Origin: Cochliopodium minus
Taxonomy: Eukaryota; Discosea; Himatismenida; Cochliopodiidae
Direction: 5' to 3'
DNA length: 28,909 bases
NCBI GenBank assembly: GCA_024220525.1
Contig: JAMYWO010000242.1
Location: 1-28,909 of the forward strand
Position numbers and translations under genes: made by a program. Under the pieces are notes generated by a model that was not told the DNA's origin, searched no databases, and saw only the letters and a program-made list of their open reading frames with translations. Of this stretch, positions 1-27,903 are shown piece by piece (the first letter of the stretch is position 1; every line of letters begins with the position of its first letter).

Positions 1-1743
1 AAGAATGATAAAATTGAATCAAATGATAAAATTGTTGATAATGGTCCAAATGTCATTGTTGTTGACAACAATCCAAAAGAACAAAATATTGAAAAAGTAA
101 AAATTTTTGAAAATAATTCAATCATGAAAACAGAGGAAATTGGAAATACTGTCCGAGATAATCAATCAGAATCTTCCAATAATGAAAATAAAATAAGAAA
201 CAGACTAAATTTGAATGAAAAAATATCTGATGTGGGAAAAACTAACAATACTCAAAAGCAAATAAAATTAAACATAAACATAAATGAGTCTAAAAATGAA
301 AATAAATTGTTGATACCTCAACCTAAGATTCACACAGGAACAGTGACAATTAATGAAAAAACCTTCAATATTAAAGAAAGCTTCAAATTCAGATATCTTA
401 AGATGAAAAATAAAAAAAAAATCAAGATAAAGAATTTGATAGAAAATTTAAAAGAACATACAAGTGTTTTTAAACTTGGTAAATACTTTGAACAAGGAAT
501 TTATGTTGAGAAAAATTTTAAAATAGCGTTTCACCTTTACCAAATCTCATTCACTCTTGGAAATAAACATGCATTTGAAAAATTGAAAATTTTTTTCAAA
601 ACTTTCAAAATTAAGTTTAGATTCCTTTGCAACAACAAATTGTTAAAGTTTTCTGTTAAAGATGGTCTTGATGAAGAAGAAACTTCACAAATCTTAACAC
701 TCTTTCATAATTTGAGAAGAAATTTAAATGAGGGATATTTGTTTGAACTGGCTCAACTTTGTGACAATGGAAAGTATTGGGAGAAGAATGTAGAATACTC
801 TTCTTTTTTATTTTTGTTCTCCAATCAACTTGGGAATTATCCAAGAGATGATGAAAGAATCATTATGGGGATCAATTCACTTGCATCTTTTTATGAAAAA
901 GAACAAAATTTGAAAAAAGCATTGTATTTTTACATTAGAGCAGATAATCAAACGAAAATTTCTGAAATATCCAAAATCTTTTATAAAGAAACTCTAGTTG
1001 AGAATTTTGATTTTACTATCAAATTGAGAATATCAAATTATCTCACAAATACAGTTCATATTGATTTTCATTCAAAAAGTTTGCAACTCGAAAACTTTTC
1101 TCTTTTTTTAATACAAAGCAATGATGAAAAAGAAGTGGAGTCTTTTGTTTACAATTTCAAATTGGACGTTTTAGTTCCCATTTTCGAAAAAGAAGGGTTA
1201 ACTGGATTGCTAAAATTAGGAAATTTTCTTTCTCAAATCAACCACAAAAATTTTGGTTTAAAGCTTTTAGCTGCCTTTCAAATTTATGAACTCGCTTTTC
1301 TCCTTGGAAGCTATTATGCCCTCAATGAAATTGAAATCCTCCTTAAAAGGAAGTCTTTGGTCAAGAGTTTTGAATTTTCTAAAAAAGAATACTCCATAAA
1401 GATCAAAAAAAGATTGTCTAAACTCCAGATCAATTATTTGTTGAGAACTCTTGACAACTTGAGATATGGCGTTAATGGAAATGTTTTGTTTGTTGTGGGA
1501 GAAATCTTTGAAAAGGGTGAGTTTTGTGAACCTAACCTTGAATATTGCATTGATTTTTACAATCATGCTTGGGAGTATGGAAATGTCGATTCATGCATCA
1601 AACTCGCTTCTTTCCACGAGGAAGGAAAGTTTTACCCAATCAACTTTGAAGTTGCTCTTTCTTTTTACAAAAAAGCAGGGAAAGTGGAAAAGGTTAAAGA
1701 ATTGGAAGATATTCTTGACGACATTCGCTTTTTGACCATTTAA
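1..1743 (+). CDS. Sel1-repeat protein, 5' partial
   Basis: The reading frame is open from the first base to the TAA at 1741-1743, about 580 codons, with no intron, so the gene probably begins outside the window. The first in-frame ATG is at 124. The N-terminal third is charged, low-complexity Lys/Asn/Glu sequence. From about 450 on there are degenerate Sel1-like (TPR-related) helical repeats, for example FKLGKYFEQGIYVEKN then AFHLYQISFTLGNKHAF (about 454-600), ELAQLCDNGKYWEKN (about 740-795), LKLGNFLSQINHKNFG (about 1210-1260) and two consecutive units at about 1490-1690. Sel1 proteins are usually adaptor scaffolds, and no enzymatic domain is seen. The fragment at 13271-14745 belongs to the same family. 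The family call is by motif spacing (G after LG.YFE, A..LY..A..LGN); a specific function cannot be given. Confidence 0.75.
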   Translation, partial: KNDKIESNDKIVDNGPNVIVVDNNPKEQNIEKVKIFENNSIMKTEEIGNTVRDNQSESSNNENKIRNRLNLNEKISDVGKTNNTQKQIKLNININESKNENKLLIPQPKIHTGTVTINEKTFNIKESFKFRYLKMKNKKKIKIKNLIENLKEHTSVFKLGKYFEQGIYVEKNFKIAFHLYQISFTLGNKHAFEKLKIFFKTFKIKFRFLCNNKLLKFSVKDGLDEEETSQILTLFHNLRRNLNEGYLFELAQLCDNGKYWEKNVEYSSFLFLFSNQLGNYPRDDERIIMGINSLASFYEKEQNLKKALYFYIRADNQTKISEISKIFYKETLVENFDFTIKLRISNYLTNTVHIDFHSKSLQLENFSLFLIQSNDEKEVESFVYNFKLDVLVPIFEKEGLTGLLKLGNFLSQINHKNFGLKLLAAFQIYELAFLLGSYYALNEIEILLKRKSLVKSFEFSKKEYSIKIKKRLSKLQINYLLRTLDNLRYGVNGNVLFVVGEIFEKGEFCEPNLEYCIDFYNHAWEYGNVDSCIKLASFHEEGKFYPINFEVALSFYKKAGKVEKVKELEDILDDIRFLTI

Positions 1744-17446: not shown

Positions 17447-20075
17447 TCAAAGTGAAGATTTTCCCCAGTTCTTGCCGCATTTGCGGTTGAATCTTCCAAG
17501 GGCCCAAATGGGGAAGATGTTCTTATAACCAGAGTAAGAAATGGCACAATTTGCATTGAAAACACCTTTGATATCTTTTCAAACAAATGATTATAATGAT
17601 TTGAACAGAATTAAAAAATTAAAATAAAAACAATAAATAAACCTTCTTGGGTCCAATCTCCATTCTTTTCTTGAGAATTCATGATAAACTCAACAGCGAG
17701 CTTGATGGGTTTAATATCAACAAGATGGTAGTTAGCCTTGAGGAGAGACAAGACAGCCCAAGAGGTGTTGACAACTTGAGACTTTTCGTTTTGGCACCAT
17801 TCCTTTTTGACACAAGACTGAAAAGTTTCCCCCCATCCTCCGTCCTTGCTTTGTCTTTCGAGAAGAAATTTGACAGCCTTTTGAACTTGTTCAGAGTTTT
17901 TGTAGTCCATGTCAAATTCACTGAGAGCTTCAATACCAAACCTACAAAAAAATTTTTAAAAGTTTAAAATTTTCTTTGAAAAAATTTTTTTTTTTACCAT
18001 ATGGCATAAGTGAAACATACGGCCCAACTTCCTAACCAACTTCCATCGATTCTTTGTACTTTCAAAACGAAATCCAAACCTTTTTGCATGGAATCCTTCA
18101 CTTCTTGGGTTCTATGGTGAGGATAAAATCTTTTGAAGATACTCAAAGCCTGGATACAAGCACTCGTACATTCAACATAACTATAATCAACCATGATACC
18201 ATAAAAAACCTCTGCAGGGTTCAAAAGTTCTACCCAATCAGGTCCTTAATAAAAAGAAAAAAAGGAGAATTGTTTTTTAAAAAGATTTTTGTAATGTTAA
18301 ACTTATCAAATACCTCTTTTAAGTTCATAGGTTGCCCAACCACCATCTTTGTTTTGGAGAGAAAGGATGACATTGATAGCATCGAAATAACGTTGATCAG
18401 AAAGAGGTTCGACAAACTTGCAGTGTTTTTTGAGTTGAAGAGATGCCTTAAGACCTTCACTAGTACAATCAGAAATAGGCCATCCATGATCTCTTGTAGA
18501 AAAAGGCCAGGCTCCTTTTGAAATGTGTCTGTAGTATTTTTCTTGATCTTGGACATCTTCCAACACTTGGGAACAATCAATAAACTCTGCTGCTTTAGAC
18601 AAAGGCTCTTTGAATTCATCGCACAAACCAGTCTCAATCATAGCTTGTACACTAAAAGCAGTATCCCATAATTGTGAGCCATTATAACCTTGCATCTTCA
18701 TACCGTCGGAAGAAATCCACAAATAGTCGTTAACTCTCTCTTGGTGCTTTTTGAAGTTTTCACTTTCAGGTCCCTCCTCCCAGAAAATAGACAACATGTT
18801 TATTGCTTTGTTCACTGGACCAATGTCGATGTGTTTAGTGTTGATGTCTTCTTGTCTGATGTGGTCAATGCACATTGACAATGCCTTTTCTCTTATCCAC
18901 TTGCTGTGAAAGGATTCATAAAAGTTTACAATGGCTGCACAGAGAAAAATAGAAGATTAAATTATAAAAGATTTTGTGATAAATGTTCTCTATTTATTTT
19001 TACAAAAAGTAATCTTGTTGAGAGTAGATGCAGGAGTATAAATATCAAGGGATGAAACATATCCTTTCAAGGAACTCCAGTTGATTTGATCATAAGATTC
19101 GTTGTAGATCTCTTCTCTTAAAGCCAAGATGAGGGGAGTGGGCTCGGGTCTTGCTTTCTTTCCATAAATGTAGCCCATAGGAAGATAAACTACTCTGCAA
19201 TGGCACCACCATCTACCAGGATGCATTGGCAACCAATTTGGGAGCAACCACAGTTCTGGTGGAACTGCATTCATTCCTTCCCATTCGTATACTCCAAGTG
19301 CACATAGCCAAAATTTGCCCCATGATGGAATTCCTTTTGCTCCATCATTGTTCAAAAGAAATTCTCTTGCCTTAATTATTCTTGAATCATCTCTATCCAA
19401 ACCCAATAATCTCAATGTCACATAATTCATCGTTGTACCAAAGATAGTGGATTTATCTTCCAAATGCAATCCCCATCCTCCATCATCATGTTGTATATTG
19501 GTGAGATATCTAATCATCTCCAATTTCTGAGCTTCTTCTAAGGGAGTTTTGGTAATATAACAAGTAAAAACCAAACCTGGAAGGAGAAAAAGAGGTCCAC
19601 CATAATCATTAGCCCAATGTCCATCTTGAAACATTGAATCAAATATTATATATTCCTATATTTGGTTTAATATATTAAAATCTTCATACCTTCAGTTTGA
19701 ATTTTTGAATAAAAATTCATAGCATTTCTTGCACTTTCTAATGGTGTTGTGGGTGTTTGCAATGGTGGACATTCTTCGCTCTAAAATGGATTTTTATAAT
19801 TCAAAGTTTATTAGGAAATCTCCTCTAATTAATTATTTTAAAGGAAGATGATTTTACAATATCCAATCCAAGAAAATATTTTTCGCACACTCTTTGTAAT
19901 CTTTCCGCATTTGAAGATACATATTTCCATACTTGTCTTCCCTTGTCAACTTCCAATCTCCAGTTGGTCAAATCAGTTTTTTCTTTGCATTCTTTTGGCT
20001 TTTGAATCTATATTGATTTTAAAGAATTAAAATTCATTTTCATAAATTTGATCTTTTTACCCATTGAGTGTACAT
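17447..20075 (-). CDS. CAS1: Cycloartenol synthase (oxidosqualene cyclase)
   Basis: Eight minus-strand exons (20075-20061, 20007-19858, 19780-19690, 19624-19004, 18934-18314, 18244-17998, 17941-17643, 17565-17447) join in phase to 720 aa, within the normal range of oxidosqualene cyclases. The enzyme folds 2,3-oxidosqualene into the first sterol ring system and is monotopic on the ER. The start is [19 protein letters not shown]-like; QW repeats are present ([39 protein letters not shown]). The acid is D448 in DCTSEG. Product-deciding residues match plant cycloartenol synthase: Tyr376 in QGYNGSQ (Arabidopsis Y410), His442 and Ile446 in HGWPISD (H477, I481), whereas lanosterol synthases differ here and have Val for Ile. 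The C-terminal block [13 protein letters not shown] is intact. The first coding exon is only 15 nt. The gene is divergent from MDH. Confidence 0.95.
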
Positions 20076-20418: not shown

Positions 20419-21491
20419 ATGTCATTTGTAAATATCTCCTTTTTTTCTTTTTTTTTTTTTGAATATACTCCTATCTAATATTTTTGAAATAGACAAAACA
20501 ACCAGTCACAGTCGTAATAAGTGGAGCAGCAGGCCAAATTGGGTATTCATTGATATTTAATATTGCAAGTGGACAAATGTTCGGAGAAGATCAACCAGTA
20601 AATCTTCATTTGTTGGATATAAAATTGGCAGAACAAGCATTAAAGGGAGTAATATTGGAAATAGAAGATTGTTCATTCCCACTTTTGAATAAAGTGATAC
20701 CCACATTCGAATATGATGAAGCATTTCAAAATGCAGATTATGCATTGCTTGTTGGAGCTATGCCAAGAAAAGAAGGCATGTTGAGAAAAGATCTATTAAA
20801 AGCAAACGTTGGAATATTCAAAGATCAAGGACAATCCATCAATAGAGTAGCAAAAAAGACAATCAAAATTCTTGTTGTGGGAAATCCAGCCAACACAAAT
20901 TGTTTTATATGCTCGCATTATGCCCCATCCATCCCAAAAGAAAATTTCAGTGCTCTAACAAGATTGGATCACAACAGAGCAATTACACAGATTGCACAAA
21001 GACTCAAAGTAGCAAGCAAAGATGTCAAAAATGTAATTATTTGGGGAAATCACAGCAACACCCAATTCCCTGATGTCAATCATGGTCATATCCAGATTGG
21101 AAATGGAAACAAATCCATTAGAGAAGCCATCAATGATAATAACTGGCTCAATGGAGAATTTGTTACCACTGTCCAACAAAGAGGATCACATGTTATTTCT
21201 GTCAGAAAGTCTTCATCTGCTGCCAGTGCTGCCAAAGCTATCACTGATCATATGAGAAATTGGGTTCTTGGCACTCCTAAAGGCGAATTTGTTTCCATGG
21301 CTGTTTTCAGTGGTGAATATGGTATTCCCAAAGGTGTTATCTACTCCTATCCTGTAACTTGTAGAGATGGAAAATATGAAATAGTCAAGGGTCTCCAACT
21401 TGATGAATTTGAAAAGAAAATGATGCAGATCACTTATGATGAACTCAAAGAAGAGGCAAATATTGCTTCTGAATTCCTCGATAAAAATTAA
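20419..21491 (+). CDS. MDH1: Malate dehydrogenase, cytosolic type
   Basis: Two exons, the first only 9 nt (20419-20427, encoding MSF) and the second 20493-21491, give 335 aa. The enzyme interconverts malate and oxaloacetate with NAD(H). Evidence includes the Rossmann loop GAAGQIG (14-20), LLDI with the acidic residue that favours NAD over NADP, the substrate loop AMPRKEGMLRKDLL (R95, R101), VGNPANTN, the catalytic pair Asp162 and Arg165 in ALTRLDHNRA, and His190 in WGNHSNTQ. These blocks are those of cytosolic MDH1 rather than the mitochondrial type, and there is no targeting peptide. The upstream ATG was chosen because the second exon starts directly in the conserved domain after a TAG acceptor and has no earlier ATG in frame. 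Confidence 0.95.
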
Positions 21492-21780: not shown

Positions 21781-23884
21781 ATGGGAAATTCTACAAATTC
21801 AAAAGAAGACAAAAAAACATTGGAACATTTGAGTTCTGAACAAACAACATGTAAGAATTATATTTCTCTTTGTCATCAATATTTAATATAAAAACAATTT
21901 TAATAGTTTCAAGAGAACAGTTGTTGGAATTATTGGAGAAATTCAAAAAAAAATATTCTACAGGATATATGACAAAAGAAGAATTCATACAAGAAAATAT
22001 AACTCTCCAAGGAGGAAATGAAGTATTTTGGTCTGAGGTATATGATAACTTCACCAAAGGAAATGAAAGAACAGATAGAATAACATTTTCTGATTTCATT
22101 ATTGGTTTCAACAAATTAAAATTTTTATTATATTTTGGCTAATATTTTGAAATAAAAAGGATTGACAAGTATTACTGATGGAACTGAAGAAGAGAAATTG
22201 ACTTGGATGTTTAATATGTATGATGCTGATGGAAATAAAACCCTTGATAGGAATGAAGTACATAGTTTGGTGCAAGGACTTATCAAAGCCAATAATGAAC
22301 AAGATAAAACAAATGAAGAAATTAAAAATTTGTCAGATAAATTTTTTGATGAGATGGACAATGATAAGAATGGAACCATTGATATGCAAGAATTCATTAA
22401 TGTTTCTTTGATCACACCTTTCATAAAAGATTCATTGACATGTGTCATGACCCAATCTCTCGAAGGTAAATATTAATTAATTGCACATAAAAAGAAAAAA
22501 TTTTAATTATATTCTGATATAGTGGGGAAGAATGAAGATGAATTTTCTGAATTTGAAAATCAAGTGGCAGGTAAATTAATATAATCGAATTTCATATAGA
22601 AACCTTTCTCAAAGGGGATAATCATTTATGATCAAATGATTATTATATAAAATTAACTTCAAATTCTAAGTGTTAAATTTTAGTTTTAAAATTCCCATAA
22701 TTTAATTTAAAAAAATAATATGCAATTTCGTTATTTTTTTCACAAAATTTTTTTATCATAAATATTATTTTAGGACACAAGGGCAAAAGTGCAATGTTGA
22801 AAGATCCATCTGGAAAAACCATTTTCAAACCATTACATCCAACAGAATTTGAATTCTATCAAACCTTAAAGAATTATCCAGAAATTCACAAATTCTTTCC
22901 TATATTCCATGGAAGAAAGATGGTGCAAGAAGAAGATGGTGTCATCAGTTATGTCCAAATGCAAAATCTCACAGATGGATTGATCCAACCTTGCATTTGT
23001 GATCTCAAAATGGGATTCAAGGGATATGATCATACTGCTGGAAAACTCAAGATTGCTCAACAAGTTGCATTATGTACAGTTACAACATCATCAAGTTTGG
23101 TAAAAATAATTTTATATAAATAAGAATATTTTGCATATTCCTGAATAATCAAACATATTTTTCAATTTAAATTTATTATAAAAGGGTTTTCGTATGTGTG
23201 GTATGAGGTATTTTAATGGAACAGAGTTGGTTGTTAGAGATAAGCCATGGGGAGCAAAATTATCCAAGAGCACCATGCAAGATGCTCTCTTTCAATTTTT
23301 GACTCGTTGTCGTTTTGACGTTGCACAAGTATTCAGCGAGAAGCTGAAGGAACTTTTGGAGTGGTTCAAAGAACAAAAACTCTTTAAATTTTATTCCAGC
23401 TCCATTCTTCTTATTTATGATGCTTCTAGTTATGACACATCAACTGTGGATATTAAGGTAGTAGATTTTGCTCATACATTTCCTTCCACAGATGGAAAGT
23501 TGGATGATAATTATAAGTAAACTTTTTCATTTAATTTAATTTTTTTATTTTTAAAACTTTTTTTTTTTCTTCAGGGATGGTTTGATAAATCTTGTTAATA
23601 TTGTGGACAAAATATCTGCTTTGGCTTCTCATATTTACGAAAACCAAAAGAAGAAAGGTGAGCAATGGAGCAAGGCCTTTTTGGGTAATGATCGCGCAGA
23701 GTACACTAACGAAGACGGATCTATTCCTATCACCTTTAGAGAAACAAATTTGTGGAAAGTTGATCGTGATTTGCCTAACAGTGACAGTGATGGTTGGCAA
23801 TACGCTTCAAGTTACAAAGGTTCTTGGCACAGTGTAATGACCAAGAAAGATTCTGTTAGAAGAAGAAGATGGATCAAAAAATGA
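21781..23884 (+). CDS. EF-hand calcium sensor / inositol polyphosphate kinase / DysF-like fusion
   Basis: Seven exons (21781-21850, 21907-22104, 22160-22465, 22523-22570, 22774-23099, 23185-23516, 23575-23884) join in phase to 529 aa. MGNSTNS at the start is a candidate N-myristoylation signal. Residues 25-190 resemble NCS/calcineurin-B sensors: two degenerate EF-hands, then canonical loops DADGNKTLDRNE (111-122) and DNDKNGTIDMQE (156-167). Residues 205-450 are an inositol polyphosphate kinase, with QVAGH (205-209), PCICDLKMG (280-288, the PxxxDxKxG motif), SSLGFRMCGM (about 314-323) and VDFAHT (409-414). The tail DGWQYASSYKGSWH...VRRRRWIKK (499-529) resembles the dysferlin/Pex30 DysF C motif. 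Such kinases phosphorylate IP3 or higher inositol phosphates; which substrate is used here is unknown. Myristoyl and EF-hand parts suggest calcium-controlled membrane recruitment (inference). Between the last stop and QVAGH the kinase frame has no ATG, which argues for one gene. Confidence 0.82.
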
Positions 23885-24055
23885 AAAACATTCAATTAAA
23901 ATAGACCTTAAAAACTTTAAAATGGTTCTTAACGAAGCTTATTAAACAATTTTGCTTTTATTCTTTCTTTTCCGTCAACATTTAAATCTTTTTGAAATTG
24001 ATCAATCAATAATTAAACGATTAATTCTTTCAAAAAAAAAAAAAAAAATTTGATA

Positions 24056-27000
24056 ATGGACAATAATTTATTTTCACTCACTGATTCCTATGATAGATTG
24101 AATAATTCTTCTGACAGATTAGATAATTCCTCCAATCGTTTGGAGAATTCTCAAAATCAGTTGGATTTATCATCCAGCCAGACAGAGATCTCTAATTCAA
24201 ATAATCTTTTGGACATTTCTATGGAGATGTCGATGGATTTGATCTTGGATAGAAAATTGACAGAGAGTCATCTTTATTTCTTGTCCAGTGAGACCAATAA
24301 TGAGAAGATTTTGGAATTATTTTCGAATAAGGAAAATTATACGCTTATTGATGACTATCTCAAAAATTGCTTGCATTACTATTGTCTAAATGCAAATATG
24401 GATGTGGAGATATTAAAAAGTATTGTTAACAATAAAGCGAGTACGAGCTTGATAGGTGAATATTATATTTAATCAAATAGAAAAATTAATTTTCCTCTTT
24501 TGATAAATCAATCATAAAGATCAATTTGGGAAAACACCAATGCACTATTTAGCCACAAACAAATCTATCAGAAAAGAAATAATCGAAGTATTGTTCGAAA
24601 AATCAGATTTAGACCTGAAGGATAACAAAGGTGAAAAAATTTTTTTGCAAATTCGAATCAATTTATTTTGAAAAAAAATTTTTAAAGGGAAGACAGTATT
24701 TTCATATCTATCATCGAACGATTCTGTTCCCAATGATATATTGGCTTTTTGTTTGTTGAATGGAGTTGATCCCAAGAGAAAAGACAACACAGGGCGAATA
24801 TCCTTACATTACTACTCGTCAAATAGGCTAGGTAAACTACTTTTTGCTTAATCTTTTTCACTTGTAAAAGTAAATACTGATCATTTTAATAATTTTTTTT
24901 TTTTTTAATTTTGTTAGTTAGTAGTGACACCATTAAATTATATTTTAAATATAATAGTGATCCAAACTTGGTAGACCAGTTGAACAGAAAGACTCCGTTT
25001 CATTACGTGTCTATCAACAGGTGAGAATATTTTTTTTTTTATTTACAAAATGGTTTTTGAGTTATTTTGAAAAAGGAGGACTAACCACGAAGTGTTCAAA
25101 CTATTCTTTGAAAACAAAGGAGACTCCAATATTTTGGACAAACATCAAAAGTCACCGTTTCATTACTATTGCGAGAATGAATCAATCACCAACGAAAGCT
25201 TGCAAATATTTTTAGACAACAAATCTGACCCCAATTTGTTAAACAAGAACAGTAAAACTGCTTTACATATTTTGTGCTCTAATCCAAGTGTTGACATTGA
25301 AAAAATAAAGATGATGAGAGAAGCTGGACTCGATTTGAATTCGAAGGACCGATGGAACCGGATCTCCTTTCATTACTATTGCATGAATGAAAATTTATCC
25401 ATAGAACCAATCCGTTTTTTCATAGAGAATGAAGCAGGTAAAAAGAAATAATTTTTTATTTTAAATTTTTTTAAAATATTTTAATTATACTACTATTAAT
25501 AATTTCTTGTTTAGACCCTTACGCAAGGGATTCCAATTACAAAACTCCAATCCACGAGCTGTTTTCCAACTCAAAGATAAACAAGGAAATTATAGAGTAC
25601 ATCATTTCTTCTCAAGTAAACCTGGGTTTGAAAGATAGCAATGAGAGGACTCCCTTTCATTTTCTCATTTTGAACGAAGAAGTCAAAATAGACATGATTG
25701 AGCTGCTTCTTTTCCACAAAGTAGACATCAGAGAAAAATTCAAGTTTAAGAGGACTGTTATTCATGACTTGTTGTCCAAGAATAAGATCAACATTAGTCT
25801 TTTGGAATTTTTGCTCGGGTGCAACTTTGACATCAACTTGATGGACGAAAACCAAAAGACTCCTATTCATTATTACTGTTGCAATGAAAACATAGAAATG
25901 GAAATTTTGGGTTAAAAAAAAAATGATTTCTTATTCAATTCTTTCTGATTTTATTCTTATTTTTTTTTCTTCAATAAAGATTTCTTGCTTGTGAACAAGG
26001 TTGATGTAAATGTCAAAGACAAAAACGAAAAGACTCCTTTCCACTATCTCATTTTGAACAAAGGCAGCAACGAAGAGTTGATAAAGAAGATGATTCTCAA
26101 TAAAGCTGATGTTAATCTTTCTGGGCAAAAAAAGAAAAATGTTGTTCACTTTTTGGCTTCCAATGAGGTTTTTATTTTAAATGATTTATTGTTATTAAAT
26201 TTTATAATTAATTTTTTTTGAAAAAGAGTGCTCCAAGGTCCATTTTCGAGTTTTTTAAGCCTCATTTTGATCCAAAGCTATTCAACCAAAAAGATGAGAA
26301 CAACAAGACTCCTTTTCATTATTTGTCCCTCAACAAGTCCAAAAAAGTAAGTTTGGAGGTGCTGAGCTATTTTCTGGAGATTAATGCTGACCCCAACTTG
26401 AAGGATGGAAACTACAAGACTCCTTTTCAATATTTCACAGATATCCAAGATTTAAACGAAGAAATTCTCCAAAATTTTTTGGATTACAAAGCAGGTAAAC
26501 AGAAAATTTAAAAAATCATTTTTTTTTTATTTTTTTTTTTTACAAAAGATATAAATTCACGTGACAAAAATAACCGGACCCCTTTTACTTACATTTCGGA
26601 TAATCCTAGAACAACCCCAAAAATGATCGAGATTCTCCTTGGTACATCAGATATTCCACAAGAACCTGATGATTCATCAAAAACTCCTTTACATTACTAT
26701 TGTTACAACAGGAGCATCTCTTTGGGTAATAATTTTTAAAAGTTTAATTTTTAGTTTAAATCAAAAATTAAAATTCACGAAAGAATGTTTGCCCCGCTTT
26801 GTCGAAATTTACAAAAGTAAAATCAACCATCCGGACAGGCATTCGAGAACACCTTTCCATTATTTATGCACAACTAGGAGCTCCAACTATAATATGCTTA
26901 ATCTTTTTCTTACCAACAATGCAGACCCTAATATTGTTGATAACTACCAAAAAAAGACGCCATTTCATGAACTCTCTTCCAACAAAATTATTAATACTCC

Positions 27001-27903
27001 CATAATGAAACTTTTTTTCTCTTGTGGTGCAGTTCCTAACATACAAGGTATTTATCATTTGGTTTGTTTTGTATTTTTTTTAATTTATAAATTGATTTCT
27101 TAAGATCAATCAAAACGTTCACCTTTTCATTATGCCTCCGCAAATGAACATTCTACTATCGAGTTACTAAGGGTATTTCAAAAAAAAAAAATTAAAAATG
27201 ATTTTAAAAGCTGAAATATTTTTTTTTAAAACAAAAAAAAAAACAAGTTGTTTTTAGAAAACAAAGGAGATCCAAATATCAGGGATGGGTTAGGTAAAAC
27301 CACAATGCACCATCTAGCTTGCAACGACATTTTTTGCATTGAATCCATTGAAATGATGTTGTCTCACAAGATCGATATCCATGCTCTTGGTAAAAAAAAA
27401 AAAATATTATTTTTGAAAAAATATAAATTTATTTTTCATTTTAATCAACTCTTTAGATTTTTCATTTCAATTTATTTTTCATTTTAATCAACTCTTTAGA
27501 TTTTTCACAAAACAGTGTTTTGCACTATGCTGTTAGCAACATTAAAGTTACTATTCCAACTTTGTATTATATACTCGAACTTGGTGTGACATTCAAGCAA
27601 CAGCAAACCTTAACGCCTCTCCATCTCGCTAATTCCAGCGACCAATACTTGAAAGTGGCTCTTCTTTTGGCTTACAACGGTTGCTCTAAATCTCTACTTA
27701 AAAACTTGATTGAGACATGTGATCCTTTCTCTAAATCCTACCAGCTTTATACAGAGTTTAAAAAGATGTACATTTTTTTGTTTTAATTTTTTTAAACATC
27801 CAATCTCTTTATTTCTTTCTCCAGGAAAACAATCTGGAATACCAAGAGGCACATTTTATACCCTTCACAATTCAAGAAATATGTTTTCTTTTTACTTTGT
27901 TTC
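24056..27903 (+). CDS. Large ankyrin-repeat protein, 3' end in gap
   Basis: Fourteen exons (24056-24455, 24520-24630, 24688-24831, 24918-25020, 25076-25437, 25515-25910, 25980-26167, 26227-26494, 26549-26725, 26784-27047, 27105-27172, 27248-27389, 27500-27767, 27825-27903) join in phase to about 990 codons. Residues 12-40 are four seven-residue units with leucine every seventh position (SDRLDNS, SNRLENS and so on). About 24 ankyrin repeats follow, of an unusual style: the helix-1 block reads KTPFHYYCxNEN rather than TPLHLAA, and loops read ADPNLLD. Nine of 13 introns are phase 1, often splitting a GAT codon in the inter-repeat loop, as expected if the array grew by exon duplication. The end, TIWNTKRHILYPSQFKKYVF, is a W..H..P..F tail common after ankyrin arrays. 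Only the last few residues are missing. The acceptor of exon 5 could be 25076 or 25079. Confidence 0.85.
27427..27507 (+). repeat. 43-bp tandem duplication carrying a splice acceptor
   Basis: The stretch atttatttttcattttaatc through tagatttttca occurs twice with a 43-base period, at about 27427-27464 and 27470-27507. Each copy includes an identical ctctttag acceptor (ending 27456 and 27499). Only the second keeps the ankyrin frame; 43 is not a multiple of three. Confidence 0.9.

Follow-up and report, generated by a model that had tools for sequence, protein, structure and literature searches.

In animals, Ca2+ control of IP3 phosphorylation needs an IP3 3-kinase together with calmodulin, which these kinases use as a separate protein. 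Other enzymes, such as NOX5, plant CCaMK, and USP32, have a built-in EF-hand regulator, and we know of no inositol kinase among such EF-hand–fused enzymes. Kinases of the IPMK type, which have both inositol phosphate (IP) and PIP2 3-kinase activity, carry to our knowledge no EF-hand or DysF part. Free Ca2+ sensors of the NCS family (recoverin, hippocalcin, NCS-1, and KChIP) normally have an EF1 disabled with a Cys-Pro (CPxG), a competent EF2 being also a norm of the family, in which EF2 to EF4 are variably Ca2+ competent. The DysF proteins dysferlin, TECPR1, and Pex30 are ferlins, tectonins, or ER membrane peroxins; we know of none that carries an inositol polyphosphate kinase (IPK) and of no earlier connection of inositol phosphate signaling with a DysF domain.

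The stretch of DNA analyzed here (the window) comprises the first 28,909 bases of a 62 kb contig (C242), and the genome searched alongside it amounts to 44.65 Mb in 598 contigs. The window contains a gene in which an NCS-like Ca2+ sensor precedes an IPK and a probable DysF domain. Its product has in common with NOX5, plant CCaMK, and USP32 the principle of an EF-hand sensor fused to an enzyme, and differs from them in the class of that enzyme.

Gene model and domain order

The preliminary description of this DNA had proposed that an EF-hand module and an IPK are joined in a single 529-aa frame, and the spliced gene model bore this out. Seven exons on the forward strand (21781-23884) join into 1590 nt encoding 529 aa plus a stop codon without a frame break on translation, the frame being open from the ATG at 21781 to the stop at 23882-23884. 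All six introns have GT-AG borders, five of them with a GTAA donor. The donor at 22105, inside the NCS domain, is weak (GTTTCA), yet its position is the one required by NCS homology. Residues given earlier for the landmarks were correct (EF loops at 111 and 156, QVAGH at 205, PCICDLKMG at 280, and VDFAHT at 409), and the sensor and kinase stretches that aligned to PDB entries are separated by a gap of 17 residues. Local G+C content in the window is 24-33%, and the introns mark its genome as eukaryotic. The features of the gene are as follows.

21781..21850, + strand: exon 1, beginning MGNSTNSK with an N-myristoylation-type Gly at the start (translation and phmmer)
21907..22104, + strand: exon 2, N-terminal half of the NCS-like domain, EF1/EF2 region without canonical loops; donor GTTTCA
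22160..22465, + strand: exon 3, C-terminal half of the NCS-like domain
22222..22257, + strand: EF3 loop DADGNKTLDRNE, residues 111-122, with Lys at position 6
22357..22392, + strand: EF4 loop DNDKNGTIDMQE, residues 156-167, canonical
22466..22522, + strand: intron between the sensor and the linker exon, 57 nt, phase 1; donor GTAAATAT, acceptor GATATAG
22523..22570, + strand: exon 4 (linker), 48 nt, encoding QVA and the first base of the Gly after it; flanked by phase-1 introns
22561..23611, + strand: IPK domain, residues 205-439 (exons 4-7), with PCICDLKMG and VDFAHT
22774..23099, + strand: exon 5, N-lobe of the kinase and PCICDLKMG
23185..23516, + strand: exon 6, C-lobe of the kinase and VDFAHT
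23575..23884, + strand: exon 7, final kinase helix and C-terminal domain, uninterrupted
23633..23881, + strand: probable DysF (dysferlin) domain, residues 447-529 (IYENQ...DSDGWQYA...VRRRRWIKK), matching the C-terminal part of Pfam Pex24p

Several other genes or open frames were noted. A lactate/malate dehydrogenase-type gene (MDH; Ldh_1_N and Ldh_1_C) at 20550-21491 (+) ends 289 bases upstream of the ATG at 21781. Pieces of a squalene/oxidosqualene cyclase gene lie at 18306-19634 (-), the N-terminal piece being nearest to lanosterol synthase (PDB 1w6j, 5.6e-78), and this is, from its sequence, apparently an ordinary sterol-pathway gene. The frame at 24050-24469, just downstream of the gene described here, gave no Pfam match; an open frame at 26639-27100 (+) has weak ankyrin-repeat matches, and one of 539 aa at 124-1743 (+) has a Sel1-repeat match. 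Elsewhere in the genome, an open frame reported as 6091 aa long, at C21:206455-206670 (L021), is Asn/Ser-rich in the 1039 aa read, and this part has repeated CxxC...H...C motifs near its start.

Kinase family and C-terminal domain

The full IPK domain with QVAGH, PCICDLKMG, and VDFAHT, as previously proposed, was evident in both searches, and the matches of kinase and sensor alike lie far above chance. Pfam IPK (PF03770) matched at 5.6e-44 (150.8 bits against a curated cut-off of 22.2) over positions 1-189 of the 190 in the profile, and residues 203-439 matched human IPMK at 1.6e-29 (phmmer against PDB with the full-length query; best 60 of 150 matches). When the kinase domain alone was used as the phmmer query, 16 PDB matches were obtained up to E 10, all of them IPK-family proteins; IPMK came first (5.9e-30), followed by IP6K (2.7e-18), IPMK 2iew (7e-12), and lastly IP3 3-kinase (best 5.4e-8). 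The alignment to IPMK (human 6m88 and Arabidopsis IPK2alpha 4frf) extends over nearly the full length of the kinase domain, with QVAGH (human), PCIxDxKxG, SS[IL]L..Y, and DFAH common to both.

A genome-wide search for IPK sequences recovered at least seven stretches on four contigs (C242, C36, C9, and C246), which we read as four genes. PCICDLKMG, VDFAHT, and the Lys of FKPL in the window protein align with human IPMK, and their key residues are invariant in all four paralogues. The motifs PxxxDxKxG and DFxH are catalytic and the Lys has a nucleotide-binding role; DFAH instead of DFGK agrees with IPMK/IP6K. The C9 (L003) and C246 (L004) genes have, by eye, a hydrophobic stretch ahead of QVAGH/QIGGH in place of an EF domain, and Pfam at E 0.01 showed IPK alone in both, which suggests that they encode membrane-anchored kinases without a Ca2+ sensor. 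Relationships among the paralogues were read from pairwise identities rather than from a tree. The kinase domains of the window and C36 genes are 40% identical, whereas the identity of either one to the unfused paralogues, to human IPMK, and to AtIPK2a is only 29-34%; the unfused C9 and C246 kinases are 48% identical to each other.

As judged by pairwise score alone, IPMK ranks ahead of IP6K and IP3 3-kinase for the window kinase, whose sequence is thus IPMK-like rather than IP3-3-kinase-like. Membership in the IP3 3-kinase family was rejected, the similarity being weak. What the window protein does have in common with IP3K A, B, and C is the concept of a Ca2+-linked control of an IP kinase; its sensor, in contrast, shares one chain with the kinase and resembles NCS proteins rather than being calmodulin, and the sequence similarity is much weaker (5.4e-8) than that to IPMK. 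The contrast with calmodulin-controlled IP3 3-kinases that had been drawn earlier is therefore apt as regards function but not as a comparison within one family, since the kinase is closest to IPMK.

The last 83 residues form a probable DysF (dysferlin/Pex30/TECPR1) domain, a third part of the protein that the preliminary description did not mention. The C-terminal part of the Pfam Pex24p profile, which we take to be DysF, was the only part of that profile matched, at 0.0011 (18.6 bits) in the full protein, 2.9e-5 (23.7 bits) in a 103-aa C-terminal piece, and 2.3e-4 (20.7 bits) in the last 83 aa, all under the curated cut-off of 26.8 bits; no separate DysF model gave a match. We regard a DysF identity as likely but do not count the domain among the members of that family. 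None of eight shuffled versions of the last 83 aa matched Pex24p, and three matched other families weakly (best 0.034, the level of chance). Against PDB, the C-terminal piece found four weak entries, namely Sas-4 (0.079), dysferlin twice (0.22), and Anastral spindle 2/Sas-4 (0.23). The dysferlin alignment (E 0.22) falls on the GW-YA and RRRRW patterns common to both proteins, which we take to be those of the dysferlin DysF repeats. In a whole-genome Pex24p scan, exon 7 was not listed and the one match, on C97, was to another part of the profile; a search of the rest of the genome for another DysF copy gave only a non-significant match (E 0.4). A single-sequence AlphaFold2 model of the last exon was too poor to use (pLDDT 60.5). 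One report describes in vitro binding of phosphatidic acid by the DysF domain of Pex30 and human dysferlin and mentions reported sphingomyelin binding by that of TECPR1 (PMC12101078).

The two membrane-binding parts predicted for the window protein would suit a lipid substrate, and it is conceivable, though in our view doubtful, that the kinase, once recruited to the membrane, works chiefly on lipid (turning PIP2 into PIP3) or, like IP6K, on higher inositol phosphates instead of IP3. The dual IP and PIP2 3-kinase activity of IPMK-type kinases and the position of IP6K chains as the next best PDB family (2.7e-18) are consistent with such a preference, whereas the best match of all is the human IPMK kinase domain.

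Calcium sensor, paralogue, and junction

NCS-like sequence extends across the full sensor domain: residues 5-185 matched hippocalcin-like 1 at 1.6e-19 (phmmer against PDB with the full-length query; best 60 of 150 matches), and the recoverin alignment begins at residue 1 or 2. Pfam gave EF-hand_7 at residues 100-170 (1.4e-11), EF-hand_1 with its best stretch at residues 149-170, and USP32_N at residues 24-112. The window protein is like recoverin, hippocalcin, NCS-1, and KChIP in its MG start, the domain length of about 190 residues, the similarity over residues 5-185, and two EF loops with ligand residues. It differs from them in that EF1 is disabled without the usual Cys-Pro, reading YSTG rather than CPxG, in that EF2 has no competent loop (by eye), and in that the domain is fused to an enzyme. 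Of the two EF loops earlier described as canonical, EF4 is so; EF3 is nearly canonical, with Lys at position 6, which is normally Gly. The usual ligand positions of EF3 are kept despite this Lys, and its Ca2+ affinity is uncertain. The MGNSTNSK start presumably fits the N-myristoylation motif, as had been proposed, and the same genome contains N-myristoyltransferase matches (3.8e-28). From this start and this gene we infer that the sensor-kinase is membrane-anchored through a myristoyl group.

The most telling evidence for one fused gene lies outside the window, on C36. The C36 gene, modeled with six exons and 423 aa, opens with an EF-hand-like domain of its own followed by the IPK, the same order as in the window. 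A single gapped local BLASTP alignment takes in EF domain, linker, and kinase (residues 44-436 of the window protein against 29-407), with 127 identities over 402 positions, 32 gap positions, and an E value of 2e-56. The EF domain of C36 is weak in Pfam (EF-hand 0.028, below the cut-off), and its N-domain as a query matched KChIP4 at 4.7e-6 (phmmer; 33 sequences up to E 1). When the window sensor was searched against the genome, C36 ranked tenth of 12 matches (E 0.0044; 0.035 in another search); other EF-hand stretches ranked higher, which is to be expected from the degenerate loops of C36. The C36 equivalent of EF3 reads DLNKERKLTKEY and lacks the final Glu, EF4 is shortened, and both the MG start and the DysF tail are absent; C36 therefore looks like a Ca2+-blind relative, whereas the window copy looks like a Ca2+ sensor enzyme. 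Since C36 retains the fold of the EF domain although its loops are not competent, the domain may work without Ca2+.

This raises the alternative that the EF domain serves for structure or docking rather than as a Ca2+ switch, and that regulation comes from the DysF and myristoyl membrane contacts alone. Besides the retention of the domain in C36 with degenerate loops, the Lys at position 6 of the window EF3 would fit such a role. We nevertheless consider it unlikely for the window protein, in which EF4 is intact together with the liganding positions of EF3, and for which the match to an animal NCS protein (1.6e-19, full-length query) is better than for C36 (4.7e-6, N-domain query).

The sequence at the junction of sensor and kinase would also allow for two products of one gene, a free NCS sensor and the fused kinase, with splicing setting the share of sensor that is tied to the enzyme. 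Retention of the 22466-22522 intron is predicted to bring in an in-frame stop at 22476, directly past the NCS domain, and thereby to yield a 194-aa free NCS protein; skipping of exon 4, a 48-nt in-frame cassette flanked by phase-1 introns, is predicted to keep the frame and lose QVA. In-frame stops are, however, expected by chance in AT-rich introns, and the C36 junction has no separate linker exon, so that we hold regulated production of two proteins to be improbable.

The possibility of an independent kinase gene was addressed by its potential start codons. The preliminary description stated correctly that the kinase frame has no ATG between the last in-frame stop and QVAGH. An in-frame ATG is present at 22794 (residue 215), just past QVAGH, so an independent kinase could start there, minus its first motif. 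We scanned every ATG after the last EF exon for routes that reach a GH-keeping kinase through zero or one GT-AG intron of 40-600 nt. None of the four such ATGs in C36 feeds a kinase with GH, whereas among the five in the window one weak arrangement does, made up of MQFR and an intron of 44 nt (donor GTTATT). The first kinase Met of C36 is residue 233, deep in the N-lobe and 58 residues after the AAGH start (175), while the unfused C9 and C246 kinases start 34 and 43 residues ahead of QVAGH/QIGGH within one exon. Both junction introns have a GTAAA donor.

Two neighboring genes, a free 194-aa NCS protein made by read-through of the 22466 intron and ending at 22476 and a separate downstream kinase starting at the ATG at 22794 without QVAGH, would be spaced plausibly, the 297 nt from the stop at 22476 to exon 5 (22774) being near the 289 nt from the MDH stop to the ATG at 21781, but we rejected this reading as very improbable on the C36 paralogue, on the alignment through the junction, and on the start-codon scan (zero or one GT-AG intron of 40-600 nt, more complex routes lying beyond it): it would have to hold twice because C36 repeats the arrangement, with none of its four ATGs feeding a GH kinase and its first kinase Met 58 residues past the AAGH start, and both the upstream starts of the unfused kinases in one exon and the GTAAA donors at the two junction introns speak against it. 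C36 also lends independent support to a single fused gene, sensor first and kinase second, as it repeats that order and offers no start codon from which a complete kinase could be made alone. Together, these results leave the sensor-kinase fusion well supported at the sequence level. The common order of parts in C36, its alignment with the window protein, and the small number of independent kinase starts indicate that the fusion probably predates a duplication.

Proposed Ca2+/IP3 feedback

The same genome has a phospholipase C (PLC) gene (L023, C23:119784-120203) whose 631-aa frame contains X (7.1e-57), Y (2e-34), and C2 (1.7e-15) domains above the cut-off, its EF-hand matches being below it. 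It also encodes an IP3-receptor N-terminus (L024, C411) with Pfam Ins145_P3_rec (4.3e-37) and a MIR domain. A PLC-IP3-receptor loop is therefore represented, and given these genes and the N-myristoyltransferase, the likeliest role, by inference, is that of a kinase under Ca2+ control, acting in Ca2+/IP3 feedback at membranes.

By its sequence, the window gene places the sensor before the kinase, its kinase core is intact, and of its two Ca2+ loops one is canonical and the other nearly so; a paralogue, though diverged, has the same order. We accordingly favor, with a probability of about 0.6, a three-part enzyme that combines an NCS-type Ca2+ sensor, probably anchored by a myristoyl group, with an IPMK-like kinase and what is probably a lipid-binding DysF domain, and that takes part in Ca2+/IP3 feedback. 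In such an enzyme, Ca2+ released through the IP3 receptor would bind EF3/EF4 and change the shape of the sensor, exposing the myristoyl group or a hydrophobic groove. The enzyme would then move to the membrane, with the DysF domain helping, and the kinase, freed or positioned by the change in the sensor, would phosphorylate PLC-derived IP3 and perhaps also PIP2 or higher inositol phosphates. A rise in Ca2+ would thus speed the removal of IP3, the messenger that caused it, and feed higher inositol phosphates; C36 would then encode a paralogue that is blind to Ca2+ and lacks the myristoyl group.

NCS sensors, IPKs, and DysF domains belong to known families, and their combination appears to be new as far as could be checked in a partial coverage of the literature: judged by titles and the beginnings of abstracts, none of the matches listed in that coverage described an EF-hand/IPK architecture. 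No relatives were confirmed in collections of viral and prokaryotic contigs, as expected, which says little about eukaryotes. More tentatively, and only as a possibility, the protein could be an undescribed Ca2+-myristoyl-switch inositol polyphosphate kinase, in which one chain senses Ca2+, reads lipid via DysF, and consumes IP3, closing the PLC-IP3-Ca2+ loop, and of which one duplicate became Ca2+-blind.

If this is true, a single chain would represent another evolutionary route to Ca2+/IP3 feedback, built on an IPMK-type kinase, for which animals need two proteins. The protein would also be a compact subject for a direct test of Ca2+ dependence in an inositol kinase, with its Ca2+-blind C36 sister as a natural control. 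A protist Ca2+ sensor, an inositol-phosphate kinase, and a probable lipid-binding tail within one protein could in this way wire Ca2+ signaling directly to an enzyme that may remove the messenger behind Ca2+ release.
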